Below are positions 31,042-61,985 of a stretch of 64,000 nucleotides of DNA, piece by piece. The DNA lies in contig JAJXZL010000002.1 in the NCBI GenBank assembly GCA_021780075.1, positions 124,001-188,000 on the forward strand, written 5' to 3'. Numbering within the stretch: position 1 is the stretch's first letter; the number at the start of each line of letters is the position of its first letter. A program made the position numbers and the translations under genes. The stretch is from Acidobacteriota bacterium. GTDB taxonomy: Bacteria > Acidobacteriota > Terriglobia > Terriglobales > Acidobacteriaceae. The notes under the pieces are model-generated. The model ran no database searches. It was given only the letters and a program-made list of their open reading frames with translations, and was not told the DNA's origin.

Positions 31042-31045
<4 letters not shown>

Positions 31046-32142
31046 GCCGCAACCCCGCTCCCGCTCAGCTTGCGTGGAGCTACGCCTTCAAGGGCTTTGG
31101 CAATGGCCGCGATGTGTTCCGGCGTATTCCCGCAGCAGCCGCCCGCAATATTGATCAGTCCATCCTTTGCAAAGTTGCCAAGGTAGCGGGCCATATCCGC
31201 CGGTCCAAGATCGAACCCGGTTTCCGAGAGCGGATTGGGCAAGCCTGCATTCGGATAGCACGAGATCGCGACGTCCGCCTTCTCCGCAAGCTCGCTCAGG
31301 AACGGATACATCAGATCCGGGCCAAGCGAGCAGTTCAGCCCCACCGAAAGCGGCTTCGCGTGCTGCATGGCATTCCAAAAGGCTTCCGTGGTCTGCGCGG
31401 AGATCAACGTCTCTCCGCCACGGCCCACCGCCGCTGAGATCATGATCGGCAGTTCTTTGCCGTCCTCATCAAAAACCTCGCGAATGCCAACCAGTGCCGC
31501 CTTTGCGTTCAGCGAGTCGAAGATCGTCTCGACCAGGAGCAGGTCTGAGCCGCCGGCGATAAGAGCGCGTACCTGCTGCTTATACGCGGCCCTTACCTGG
31601 TCAAATGTCACCATCCGGAAACCTGCATCCTCGGCATCGGGCGAGTTCGAAAGCGACACGGTGAGAGGCCCGATGGACCCCGCAACAAACCGTTGGCGTC
31701 CCGTTGCCGTCCCCACGCGATCTGCCCATGCACGGCACTGACGCGCCGATTTCTCATTGATCTCCCAGGCCAGGTTGTTGAGAAAGGGATCCTCGATGAT
31801 CTTTTGGTAGAACTCGGGATTCTTGCGGCCACCGTGTTCCCGAGGATCGTCCACAAAGAATTCGCTCTGCGTGATACTCGTCGCGCCGAAGGTATTGGTT
31901 TCAATGATGTCCGCTCCGGCCTCCAGAAACCGCCGATGGATGTCACCGATCATCTCCGGCTGAGTCAGAGTGAAAAGGTCGCCATTATTCAACAGGTCTT
32001 TCGTGGAATCCCTGAAGCGCTCCCCGCGGATATCGGCTTCCTTCATGCCGTAGGTGCGGATCGTCGTGCCCATCGCTCCATCCAGGATGGCAATCCGGCT
32101 CTCGAGGATCTTTTCAAGCGGGTGTTGGTGGATTTTGTTCAT
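31042..32142 (-). CDS. metH: Methionine synthase, N-terminal homocysteine S-methyltransferase subunit
   Basis: Zinc-dependent homocysteine-binding TIM barrel, 366 residues, matching the first domain of MetH. Seen in sequence: [20 protein letters not shown] near the N-terminus, the first zinc Cys in GLNCSLG, and the Cys pair in [13 protein letters not shown] (about residues 336-337). It is immediately followed, with a 4-base overlap, by the subunit carrying folate, B12 and activation domains, so the two form a split MetH. It could be confused with betaine-homocysteine methyltransferase, but the neighbour settles the role. Confidence 0.93.
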
Positions 32143-32504
32143 ATCCCTCTCACGGCCCTGAGCTTTGCTGTGCCGAAAAAATCCCTGCGCATCTGCAGAC
32201 GTCTCGCCCGAACTGGCATTGCATTGTTCGCTTTAGCCCTGCCGTACCCTGCACCACGACATGTACCCCTCATTATACCGGGATGGTAAATATCCCTACG
32301 CTGGTGCTTGGGCACGCATGTTTTCCGCGTCCATCAAGATGTGCAATAACCTCGCGGGCAGTTGCTCACACTGCCTGTGCACCGGCGCTTCAAAAAAGGC
32401 GGTGCAACGCGGCCAGACCGGCCTGCCTCGGATTGTGCCGCCTCCCGTTTGACTTCACCCCCCTTGATTGCCGACCATAACCTGTCGGGGGATTACATAC
32501 AGCA
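32143..32504. other. Divergent promoter region between metH and purD
   Basis: A 362-base non-coding spacer. On the minus strand a perfect TATAAT (plus-strand positions 32272-32277) lies about 130 nt before the metH start, leaving a leader long enough for regulation. No good -35 stands 17 bp upstream of it. I looked for SAM, SAH and cobalamin riboswitch cores in the leader and could not recognise one. Confidence 0.45.
32272..32277 (-). promoter_or_regulatory. Possible -10 element for split metH
   Basis: Plus-strand ATTATA reads as TATAAT toward metH. It is an exact -10 consensus match in the right orientation and place, but without a matching -35, so it is a weak call. Confidence 0.35.
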
Positions 32505-58822: not shown

Positions 58823-59566
58823 ATGCCCGGCACAAATGTCGAGGGCAGCCGCGTCGCCTTCTTTGGCGGCAGTTTTGACCCGCCCCACAGCGGCCATCTG
58901 GCCGTGGCGCGCGCCGCCCGCGCCGCGCTCCAGCTTGACCGCGTGCTCTTCGCGCCCGTCGGCGCGCAGCCGCTTAAGCCGCAGGGCTCCACCGCCAGCT
59001 TTCAGCAGCGCCTCGCCATGACCAGCCTCGCCATCGCCAACGAGCCCGCCTTTCAGCTCTCGCTGGCCGACGCGCCCAGCAACGCTCCCAACTACACATA
59101 CGACACGCTGCTCCGCCTGCGCGCCGCGCTGTCCCCCAACAGCACACTCTTCTGCCTCATGGGCGCTGACTCCTTCATTGGTTTGCGCCAGTGGCATCGC
59201 GGAGCGGAGATTCCCTTCATCGCGCCGCTCATCGTCGCCTCGCGGCCCGGCCAGCAACTGCTTGACCTGGCCAACGTGCTGCCCGCGGGCCTTTCCATCG
59301 GACCAGAAGCCACTCCATCCGTCGTAGCAGGACCAGAACTATCCAGAGGCCTTAAGCCAAGCCCCGGCGGACTCCGCTGCCTCACACTCCGCAACGCCGC
59401 CGGAGACTCCGTACCTTTCTATCTCTTGCCCGGCCTGCACGTCGACATCAGCGCGTCTCAGATTCGAGCCCAGGTGCGCGCCGCTCGCGGCCGTCTGCCC
59501 GCGGGTCACGAGCTGTTAACCGACCCCGTCGCCGAGTACATTGCCGACCACGGTCTCTATCGATAG
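58823..59566 (+). CDS. nadD: Nicotinate-nucleotide adenylyltransferase
   Basis: Adenylates nicotinate mononucleotide in NAD synthesis. About 247 residues with the nucleotidyltransferase motif VAFFGGSFDPPHSGHLAVAR (HxGH variant) and the C-terminal ISASQIRAQ. The Met at 58823 is preceded by GGAGA at about 6 nt; earlier in-frame Met codons (58778, 58811) lack one. The segment between about residues 160 and 195 is longer than in E. coli NadD. In many bacteria nadD is followed directly by rsfS; here three genes lie between them. Its end overlaps the convergent marR gene by 10 bases. Confidence 0.93.
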   Translation: MPGTNVEGSRVAFFGGSFDPPHSGHLAVARAARAALQLDRVLFAPVGAQPLKPQGSTASFQQRLAMTSLAIANEPAFQLSLADAPSNAPNYTYDTLLRLRAALSPNSTLFCLMGADSFIGLRQWHRGAEIPFIAPLIVASRPGQQLLDLANVLPAGLSIGPEATPSVVAGPELSRGLKPSPGGLRCLTLRNAAGDSVPFYLLPGLHVDISASQIRAQVRAARGRLPAGHELLTDPVAEYIADHGLYR

Positions 59567-60060
59567 GTCCGCCGCTGTCCGTCGGATGACCCTCCATCCT
59601 GGCGCGCCAAAGGGCTATCCCACACGCGAAACAGCAGCGCCTTCAACTGCGCGAAATCCCGGGGTCCAAGCTCAGCGCTCCATTCCCGCTCGATATCCTG
59701 GAGCACCTCCAGCGCCTTCGCATACGCGGCGTGTCCGCGCTTCGTAAAGTGGACAACCCGCGCGCGGCCCTCGTTCGGCGCGTCCCTCCGCACCAGGTAT
59801 CCCAGATCTTCCAGGCTTCCCAGCAGCCGGTTCATCGCCTGCTTGCTCATCTCGGCCCGCTCCGCCAGAACGCCCGGACGAGCCCCGTCCGGGCTCGGAA
59901 ACCGCAATACCGCCATATGCGGCAGGCTCAGCCCTTCAAAGCCCGCCGCGTTCAATTCCTTGATGATGCGGCGTTGAATGGCTTGCGCCGGAACGCGCAG
60001 CAGCGCCCCGATGAGCATGTCCCTGGTCTTCACGGGTGGATTTTCCTGAAGAAAACTCAT
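59557..60060 (-). CDS. MarR-family transcriptional regulator
   Basis: Winged-helix regulator of 167 residues from the Met at 60060 (MSFLQENPPVKTRDM). Visible are the helix-turn-helix ERAEMSKQAMNRLLGSLEDL and the wing DAPNEGRARVVHFTKRGHAA. The longer frame running to 60801 is the complement of the cupin genes and not coding. It is divergent from the cupin pair, and two GTAAAC/GTTTAC-type palindromes lie in the 69-bp spacer, so autoregulation and control of the cupins are likely. The ligand is unknown. Confidence 0.9.
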   Translation of the reverse strand: MSFLQENPPVKTRDMLIGALLRVPAQAIQRRIIKELNAAGFEGLSLPHMAVLRFPSPDGARPGVLAERAEMSKQAMNRLLGSLEDLGYLVRRDAPNEGRARVVHFTKRGHAAYAKALEVLQDIEREWSAELGPRDFAQLKALLFRVWDSPLARQDGGSSDGQRRTYR

Positions 60061-60071
60061 TGACGTTATCC

Positions 60072-60086
60072 GTAAACTACGTTTAC
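60072..60086. promoter_or_regulatory. Palindromic operator 1 in the marR-cupin spacer
   Basis: GTAAAC TAC GTTTAC, a perfect 6-bp palindrome with a 3-bp centre, just upstream of the marR start. It shares its half-site with operator 2, whose centre is 27 bp away. Binding by the adjacent MarR protein is inferred. Confidence 0.65.
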
Positions 60087-60096
60087 CATAATTTCG

Positions 60097-60115
60097 TGGT
60101 AAATAGAGTTTACCA
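60097..60115. promoter_or_regulatory. Palindromic operator 2 in the marR-cupin spacer
   Basis: TGGTAAA TAGAG TTTACCA, a perfect 7-bp palindrome with a 5-bp centre, ending 14 bases before the first cupin start and just ahead of its AGGAGG. Its position would let a bound repressor block cupin transcription or initiation. Confidence 0.65.
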
Positions 60116-60129
60116 AAAGGAGGTCGTGC

Positions 60130-60678
60130 ATGACACCCCAGACAATCAGCCCACTCGTCGATCCCTCCGGCGACTCCGCGTTGCAGGCATCGCAGTCCGC
60201 CCTGCAACACATGGTCAGGTATGTGCCCGCAGGAACCGGCCCCGCCTATTGGGGCCCCGGAAGCCGGATGACGTTTCTCGCCACCGGCAAGGAAACGGGC
60301 GGTGCCTTTTTCCTCTCCGAAATCATGGTTCCTCCCGGCGGAGGCCCCCCACCCCACATCCACCACCGCGAAGACGAATCTTTCCACATCCTCGAAGGCG
60401 CCCTGACAGTTCAGGTGGGTGGGAATACACTGGATGCATCGGCCGGTGATTTCGTCTACCTTCCCCGTGGAATCGCTCATTCCTTCAAGAACGCGGGCAA
60501 TGTGAATGCCAGGGCCATTGTGCTCATCACCCCGGCTGGCCTTGAAAACTACTTTGCTGAGGTCTTCGATCCCGTTACCGATCGTTCCGCAGCGCCGCCG
60601 CCCGTCAGCAAGGAGTTGATCGCCCGCGCGCTCGCCGCTTCCCCCAGATACGGGCTGGTGCTTCTTCCCCCGGCATAG
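60130..60678 (+). CDS. Cupin-domain protein 1
   Basis: A 182-residue single-cupin protein. The metal-binding motif is PPPHIHHREDESFHILEG (His, His, Glu) and the second motif YLPRGIAHSFKN supplies the last His. AAGGAGG stands 6 nt before the ATG. The family includes quercetin-dioxygenase-like and storage/sugar-isomerase-like proteins; no specific reaction can be read. It is divergent from marR and followed by a related cupin gene. Both begin with T-P-Q-T-I, indicating tandem duplication. Confidence 0.9.
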   Translation: MTPQTISPLVDPSGDSALQASQSALQHMVRYVPAGTGPAYWGPGSRMTFLATGKETGGAFFLSEIMVPPGGGPPPHIHHREDESFHILEGALTVQVGGNTLDASAGDFVYLPRGIAHSFKNAGNVNARAIVLITPAGLENYFAEVFDPVTDRSAAPPPVSKELIARALAASPRYGLVLLPPA

Positions 60679-60703
60679 CGCGACCATAGCCAGATTCACG
60701 ACG

Positions 60704-60718
60704 AAGGAGATTCCCATC
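60704..60718 (+). promoter_or_regulatory. Ribosome binding site and apparent ATC start of cupin 2
   Basis: AAGGAG (60704-60709), six spacer bases and ATC (60716-60718). No ATG, GTG or TTG lies in frame between the upstream in-frame stop (60617-60619) and this point. The upstream paralogue has ATG at the matching codon. Confidence 0.6.
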
Positions 60719-61195
60719 ACACCCCAGACCATCGACCTGCAAATCAATCCCGCCGACGAAACCATCCTCGTCGGTCCGCTCGCCGTTCGCTTCCTGCTCA
60801 CCGGCGAGGACTCGTCCGGCTCCGTCGCTGCCTTTGAGGTCGTCGTTCCCGGCGCGCAGCGGCTCCCGGCCCCGGCGCATAGCCACGACCACTACGAGGA
60901 AACCATCTACGGCCTCGAAGGCGTCCTGACCTGGACCGTAGACGGCAGACAGATTGACGTAGGCCCCGGCCAGGCCCTCTGCATTCCGCGCGGAGCCGTC
61001 CATCGCTTTGACAACAACACCAGCCAGGACGTCAAAGTCTTCTGCGTCATCACGCCCGCTGCCATCGGCCCGCAGTACTTCCGCGAAGCCGCCGAGGTCA
61101 TCAACGCAGCCGCCGGCGGCCCGCCCGACCGCGCAAAAATGGCACAGGTCATGCTCCGCCACGGACTCACGCCGGCACCGCCTCCTCAGGCCTAG
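60716..61195 (+). CDS. Cupin-domain protein 2, non-canonical (ATC) start
   Basis: A 159-residue cupin read from ATC at 60716. After the start come TPQTIDLQINPADE, then the metal motif APAHSHDHYEETIYGLEG (His, His, Glu) and CIPRGAVHRFDN (His). All cupin ligands and the complete fold are present and the frame is open to TAG at 61193. Its N-terminus matches that of cupin 1 (TPQTI), and an ideal AAGGAG precedes the ATC by 6 nt. The gene is missed by ordinary gene finding because the first in-frame ATG is near the C-terminus. Either ATC initiates weakly, as known for a few bacterial genes such as infC homologues with AUU, or this is an ATG-to-ATC mutation or read error. Confidence 0.8.
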   Translation: MTPQTIDLQINPADETILVGPLAVRFLLTGEDSSGSVAAFEVVVPGAQRLPAPAHSHDHYEETIYGLEGVLTWTVDGRQIDVGPGQALCIPRGAVHRFDNNTSQDVKVFCVITPAAIGPQYFREAAEVINAAAGGPPDRAKMAQVMLRHGLTPAPPPQA

Positions 61196-61251
61196 CGCCG
61201 TGCCGCGCGCTACCAAGATCCAGGCCGGTAGCCTTCCCAGGCCAACCAATC

Positions 61252-61292
61252 GGTGCCCCATCCTTGGCGCGGTCGTATCGCGACAAGGGTGG
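61252..61292. repeat. GGTGCCCCA-led hairpin element, copy 4
   Basis: GGTGCCCCA (61252-61260) with arms CCATCCTTG (61258-61266) and CAAGGGTGG (61284-61292), pairing with one wobble, plus an inner GTCG/CGAC-like stem. It lies between cupin 2 and rsfS and shares lead and end with copies 1-3. Confidence 0.55.
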
Positions 61293-61388
61293 CAATCGAA
61301 GGCACTCAATTTACCCATTCGACCCCGTGCAACTTGCCCCGACCCCCTCAACGGACTACGATGAAGGTTTGGAGACGATTGCCACCGC

Positions 61389-61985
61389 ATGACGACCTCG
61401 CAGGCGCACGAACACACCCGCATCCTGGTGCAGACCGCAGCCAAAGTCTGTGAAGACAAGAAGGGCGAAGACACACGGATATTGGAGCTGGACCCCATCG
61501 ACTCCGGCTTGGCCGACTTCTTCCTCATCACCTCGGCCACCAATGAGCGTCAGGCCACGGCCATTGCAGACGAGATCGAGCTCAAGCTCAAGCGCGAGTT
61601 CGGCGTCATGGCCCACTCCGTCGAGGGCCGCCGCCAGGGCGAGTGGATCCTGCTCGACTACGTCGACTTCGTCGTGCACGTCTTCCTCGCCGAGCGCCGC
61701 GCTTTTTACGACATCGAGCGCCTGCGCAAGTCCGCCCGCCCGCTCACCCCCGCCGAGTTTGACGCGGAGTTGAAAGCAGCACTCGCGGCTAAAACCCTGG
61801 CCGCACGCAGCAAGGCCCAGGCAAAGCCCAAGACTGCGGCAAAGAAAGCCGCCAAGCCTGCTGCGGCTCCCAAAAAGGCCGCAAAGAAAGCAGTGCCTGC
61901 AAAGAAGGCCGCAGCGACGCCCGCAAAAAAAGCACCCGCGGCAAAGAAGAGCACCGCTAAAAAGAAGCCGTCCGCCAAAGGCTGA
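61389..61985 (+). CDS. rsfS: Ribosomal silencing factor RsfS with lysine/alanine-rich tail
   Basis: Binds ribosomal protein L14 (uL14) and blocks subunit joining when nutrients are short. Residues 1-118 are a normal RsfS domain: ILELDPIDSGLADFFLITSA, HSVEGRRQGEWILLDYVDFV and VHVFLAERRAFYDIERL. Residues 136-198 form an extra tail of repeated K-A-A/P units (for example KKAAKPAAAPKKAAKKAVPA), like histone H1 or AlgP tails. Usual RsfS proteins are 105-130 residues. The first gene upstream that normally pairs with it, nadD, is separated by the marR-cupin island. It is followed by a strong terminator. Confidence 0.93.
   Translation: MTTSQAHEHTRILVQTAAKVCEDKKGEDTRILELDPIDSGLADFFLITSATNERQATAIADEIELKLKREFGVMAHSVEGRRQGEWILLDYVDFVVHVFLAERRAFYDIERLRKSARPLTPAEFDAELKAALAAKTLAARSKAQAKPKTAAKKAAKPAAAPKKAAKKAVPAKKAAATPAKKAPAAKKSTAKKKPSAKG

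Follow-up and report, generated by a model that had tools for sequence, protein, structure and literature searches.

A complete cupin gene with an apparent ATC start codon in a putative MarR-linked two-cupin operon of an acidobacterium

How is a bacterial gene translated if its reading frame offers no ATG, GTG or TTG anywhere near its N-terminus? The question is raised by the second of two tandem cupin genes (cupin 1 and cupin 2, Table 1) in the window, i.e., the whole stretch of 64,000 nucleotides of an Acidobacteriaceae contig (JAJXZL010000002.1) that was analysed here. According to the initial annotation, cupin 2 is complete, lacks a conventional start before the cupin core, and apparently begins instead with an ATC that stands behind AAGGAG in the place of cupin 1's ATG. 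The sequence bears this out. The frame is open from 60620, after the upstream stop (TGA, 60617-60619), to the TAG at 61193-61195 and contains no internal stop; its earliest in-frame ATG, GTG or TTG is the ATG at 61139, codon 142 counted from the ATC and 148 codons past the coding onset at 60695 given by a coding-potential screen; and T-P-Q-T-I follows directly on the start in both cupin 1 (ATG 60130) and cupin 2. A conventional start upstream of the ATC was ruled out, as the frame contains none. The near-cognate codons at or before the N-terminus are ATA 60686, ATT 60710, ATC 60716, ATC 60731 and CTG 60737. An RNA element at the start was also ruled out, given that the interval 59400-61500 has no Rfam match at the gathering score and that the start region is weakly structured (minimum free energy -4.3 kcal/mol, with 189 of 200 shuffled sequences folding at least as well). 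The further suggestion that ordinary gene callers would miss the gene holds for the one program considered, an ORF lister restricted to ATG, GTG and TTG starts and to 60 amino acids or more, which has no entry for this frame. Of the causes offered in that annotation, namely deliberate low expression, a recent inactivating change or a base-calling error, each may still apply.

Table 1. Features of the marR-cupin region, in positions of the window
Feature	Position	Strand	Remarks
Divergent marR-family regulator	59557-60060	-	ATG is the complement of 60058-60060; Pfam MarR_2, 43.9 bits (cut-off 27)
Palindrome GTAAAC-N3-GTTTAC, putative MarR operator copy 1	60072-60086		
Palindrome GTAAAT-N3-GTTTAC, putative MarR operator copy 2	60099-60113		
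AAAAGGAGG, Shine-Dalgarno of cupin 1	60115-60123	+	
Cupin 1, first gene of the putative operon	60130-60678	+	ATG start; 182 residues; Pfam Cupin_2
AAGGAG, Shine-Dalgarno of cupin 2	60704-60709	+	6 nt before the ATC
ATC, putative start codon of cupin 2	60716-60718	+	ATG in nearest relatives
Cupin 2 coding sequence	60716-61195	+	159 residues plus TAG stop; Pfam Cupin_2 match

Such frames are scarce in the window. The coding-potential screen delineated 44 coding frames and flagged three that reach their first conventional start only after more than 12 codons, a criterion that smaller losses of a start would escape. Besides cupin 2 these were a frame running off the end of the window and a homocysteine S-methyltransferase (31045-32211). 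The latter, a candidate for a second startless frame, proved a false alarm with an ordinary ATG at 32142, which leaves cupin 2 as the only complete frame still flagged.

Whether the ATC column is the ancestral start position was examined in homologues from overlapping sets of genomes related to that of the window, each tally including the window's own genome. At an E-value of 1e-15, 28 of 99 genomes have a match to cupin 2, and at 1e-60 a match is present in 15 of 80 genomes of the genus, 31 of 397 of the order and 40 of 399 of the class. From public genome contigs, 80 of 109 loci were kept, some matches not having been fetched as loci. The resulting alignment has 100 rows, window included, with identical copies collapsed, matches weaker than 1e-30 not counted, and three loci (L044, L021, L023) left out for a contig edge or an unaligned N-terminus. 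The codon aligned with the window's ATC is ATG in 57 rows, GTG in four, ATC in four and another codon in 35; ATG or GTG thus occupies the column in 61 of 100 non-identical rows, which is more than chance placement. In 37 of the remaining 39 rows a conventional start falls between codons -20 and +12. The other two are the window itself and L120, for which conventional starts were listed as far as codon +11 and in which a TTG follows 12 codons past the column. L120 appears to be truncated, with no match to marR, cupin 1 or the operator on its stretch. Comparison with close relatives, which the initial annotation had recommended, gave the same codon as ATG in L003 and L035, followed in both by T-P-Q-T-I; a different conventional start in relatives that lack this N-terminus, which would have spoken against the proposal, was not what we found. 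Since the nearest relative, L003 (89% identity), reads ATG-ACT-CCC-CAG where the window reads ATC-ACA-CCC-CAG, the ATC of the window most likely replaces an ancestral ATG.

The four rows with ATC in the column are the window, L074, L030 and L016. L030 and L016 were not counted as ATC starts because ATG is their next codon. In L074 the ATC follows AAAGGAAG and the tree neighbours L095 and L114 have ATG; in a protein tree (94 rows from an earlier set of 95, before L126-L148 were added) the ATC of the window and that of L074 require two separate changes. As proof of a second ATC start, however, L074 is weakened by a possible alternative start, a TTG 10 codons upstream that AGGA precedes by 3 nt, and by the thin coverage (1.41) given in its contig title. 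Startless rows amount to 0 of 16 for cupin 1, 1 of 76 for marR (L105, whose N-terminus is poorly aligned) and 2 of 100 for cupin 2, which by counts alone is no clear excess.

These observations bear on the possibility that the true codon is ATG and that the C is a base error or reflects a strain mixture in the assembly. It is a single base in one genome, and the only similar case, L074, lies on a thinly covered contig. The genome, however, comprises 53 contigs, with 99.54% completeness and 0.14% contamination; if the error rate is taken as 1e-5 per base, one would expect about 0.001 false start codons in the window; and the screen left no second complete frame without a start. We therefore put the probability of an error low, and consider it less likely than a true G-to-C change.

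Cupin 2 is the putative second gene of a MarR-linked two-cupin operon, probably carried on a common mRNA with cupin 1. The TAG stop of cupin 1 is separated from the ATC by 37 nt. A promoter or terminator in between was rejected, as a scan of 59900-61450 gave promoter-like sites at 60060-60089 and 60403-60431, none in the gap between the cupins (60679-60715), and no terminator-like site. Both palindromes sit between marR and cupin 1, and marR adjoins a cupin gene in many relatives. Cupin 1 precedes the cupin 2 homologue in 16 of the 100 rows, here called tandem operons; it was not found upstream in the other 84. Of these, 59 are accompanied by a divergent marR, and in 59 an operator-like palindrome lies no more than 100 bases away. 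The other 15 of the 16 tandem operons have an ATG within codons -4 to +1, and the window alone is without a conventional start. The rare codon is thus not kept among tandem relatives in the way that infC keeps its ATC (see below), and we see no sign of selection maintaining it.

The 3' end of cupin 1 (60661-60678, CTTCTTCCCCCGGCA before the stop) varies little or not at all among most of the 16 tandem operons, which fits a shared LLPPA tail. The divergent module of marR, GTAAAC-type palindrome and cupin (59557-60678) recurs with the operator position largely kept, in records titled Acidobacteria, Rhizobium, Mesorhizobium, Bradyrhizobium, Bosea and Gemmatimonadota, some of which are metagenome bins; the module may have been passed between phyla. 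Downstream of cupin 2, 61389-61985 encodes a protein of 198 residues with a long lysine- and alanine-rich tail, which resembles the ribosomal silencing factor RsfS.

Cupin 2 belongs to the Cupin_2 family (PF07883, 63.2 bits, cut-off 27.2), as does cupin 1. Cupins carry two metal-site motifs, HxH(x)4E and PxG(x)2H(x)3N, and the corresponding residues H55, H57, E62, P91, G93, H96 and N100 are invariant in the 54 of 100 rows that are at least 76% identical, the set used for residue conservation and for changes along branches; after residue 10 the window departs at no near-invariant position. Its best solved relative by sequence is YxaG (1y3t, E 6.7e-13), which suggests a small-molecule dioxygenase-like role for the cupins under MarR control. 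Quercetin dioxygenases of the YxaG type have two cupin domains in one chain. Cupin 2 does not have this arrangement, its 159 residues matching residues 199-300 of the 337-residue 1y3t chain, and it differs further in standing beside a MarR regulator. A literature search combining marR, cupin, divergent arrangement and quercetin found nothing.

With the first ten codons excluded, dN is 0.051 and dS 0.42 between cupin 2 and L003 (dN/dS 0.12 over 147 codons): purifying selection acts on an intact protein. Eighteen synonymous and five nonsynonymous changes fall on the branch of the window, 12 and five on that of L003, while seven synonymous and six nonsynonymous changes cannot be assigned to either. 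There are about 2.8 nonsynonymous sites for each synonymous one, so that neutral evolution would have produced about 51 nonsynonymous changes on the branch of the window, against the five seen. A period without function can therefore cover at most about one fifth of this branch, or about one quarter if every unassigned change is counted on the window's side. This arithmetic bounds the functionless period and gives no date for the ATC.

It does weigh on a second explanation, according to which the C is real but the ATC initiates too rarely to be of consequence, leaving cupin 2 as an incipient pseudogene, its loss being tolerated because cupin 1 remains. In favour of such a recent loss, the window stands by itself among the 16 tandem operons, L120 points to start regions being lost from copies in this family, and a Listeria reporter with an ATT start was nearly silent (PMC13068326). 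Against it, no other lesion was seen in cupin 2, its Shine-Dalgarno sequence is intact, and the bound just given leaves relaxed evolution only a minor share of the branch. We regard a recent loss as unlikely, but as an explanation to be taken seriously.

Cupin 2 might also be made by another route, either through a +1 shift yielding a cupin 1-cupin 2 fusion or from the near-cognate ATT 60710 or CTG 60737. The cupin 2 frame is indeed open across the end of cupin 1, which closes with CTT-CCC-CCG-GCA-TAG and so has a run of C just before its stop. The shared LLPPA tail accounts for this run, however, and L030, another of the tandem operons, has a cupin 2 frame that is open no further upstream than codon -5. 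A frameshift fusion is thus not conserved and was rejected. As for the codons, ATT 60710 abuts the Shine-Dalgarno sequence directly and CTG 60737 has none. We hold any such route to be highly improbable, and initiation, if it occurs, would probably take place at the ATC.

Further support for initiation at this codon comes from infC of the same genome (L125:1462), where GGAGGAG-CACC-ATC is found. The start region reads TTGGAGGAGCACC-ATC-GCA, also given as GGAGGAGCACC-ATC, and for 20 codons in either direction there is no conventional start; the nearest are a GTG 24 codons upstream and a TTG 32 codons downstream. A search of 31 genomes gave 29 infC loci. ATC stands at the aligned first codon in 17 of them; in 11 loci, belonging to another family of the order, it lies two codons upstream in frame, and in one incomplete match the same ATC is out of register (both judged by eye). 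The infC gene of this genome therefore appears to start with ATC, as judged from sequence, and the qualification is due to the GTG 24 codons upstream. A gene caller that does not allow ATC would be forced to put the start of infC elsewhere. This apparent start makes ATC initiation at cupin 2 credible.

Rare starts of this kind have been documented in other bacteria, although very few have been characterised so far according to one study (PMC5472188). There, initiation factor IF3 is described as repressing rare starts including that of its own gene infC, which is ATT in E. coli and ATC in Streptomyces, and the GTC start of Streptomyces sigR is repressed by IF3 and keeps output below that of its partner gene (PMC5472188). 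IF3 is described as excluding weak third-base pairs (PMC10158994). In Listeria monocytogenes, ATA and ATT starts lower rsbW output and the ATC start of rnhC is stated to be experimentally confirmed (PMC13068326). Cupin 2, with ATC behind a Shine-Dalgarno sequence and no conventional start at its conserved N-terminus, would be a further case of this known kind; its ATC looks real, and uncommon. It resembles infC in having ATC behind a strong Shine-Dalgarno sequence, but the ATC of infC recurs across the sampled genus and order and has a feedback role elsewhere, whereas that of cupin 2 stands alone among tandem operons. By analogy with sigR, a rare start may reduce the output of one of two cotranscribed genes compared with the other, with the difference that the sigR start was mutated and the effect measured, while cupin 2 is known from its sequence. 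What is reported of rsbW likewise involves a third-base change of ATG to a weak start inside an operon, those variants having come from laboratory acid selection and the cupin 2 change being seen in one genome.

We consider it probable, though by no means certain, that a true G-to-C change has left a weak and presumably IF3-repressed start, which reduces the amount of cupin 2 in proportion to cupin 1. A single base change in this lineage would have turned the ancestral ATG into ATC; the well-placed AAGGAG would still recruit 30S subunits, and the initiator tRNA would decode ATC weakly. IF3, by excluding weak third-base pairs, would then hold initiation low, as at infC, and the outcome would be little cupin 2 compared with cupin 1 from one mRNA. 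In the Listeria reporter with an ATT start, fluorescence was undetectable and a western-blot signal remained but was reduced (PMC13068326); by analogy, output from the ATC of cupin 2 might be almost nil. Low output may bring some benefit, be neutral or mark the onset of gene loss. A stronger version, that the ATC is an adaptive setting which ties cupin 2 to IF3 in the manner of infC and lets the ratio of the two cupins track the translation machinery, and that, if L074 holds, ATC starts arose at least twice among these cupins, strikes us as rather doubtful.

Rare starts escape ORF finders that are limited to ATG, GTG and TTG, and should the C after all be an error, the locus would be a warning about single-base starts in assemblies. 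Cupin 2 combines a likely ancestral ATG with an otherwise intact gene, an internal control in cupin 1 and, with the infC of its own genome, what is likely a positive control for starting at ATC; it would thus provide a clean test of third-base tuning within an operon.
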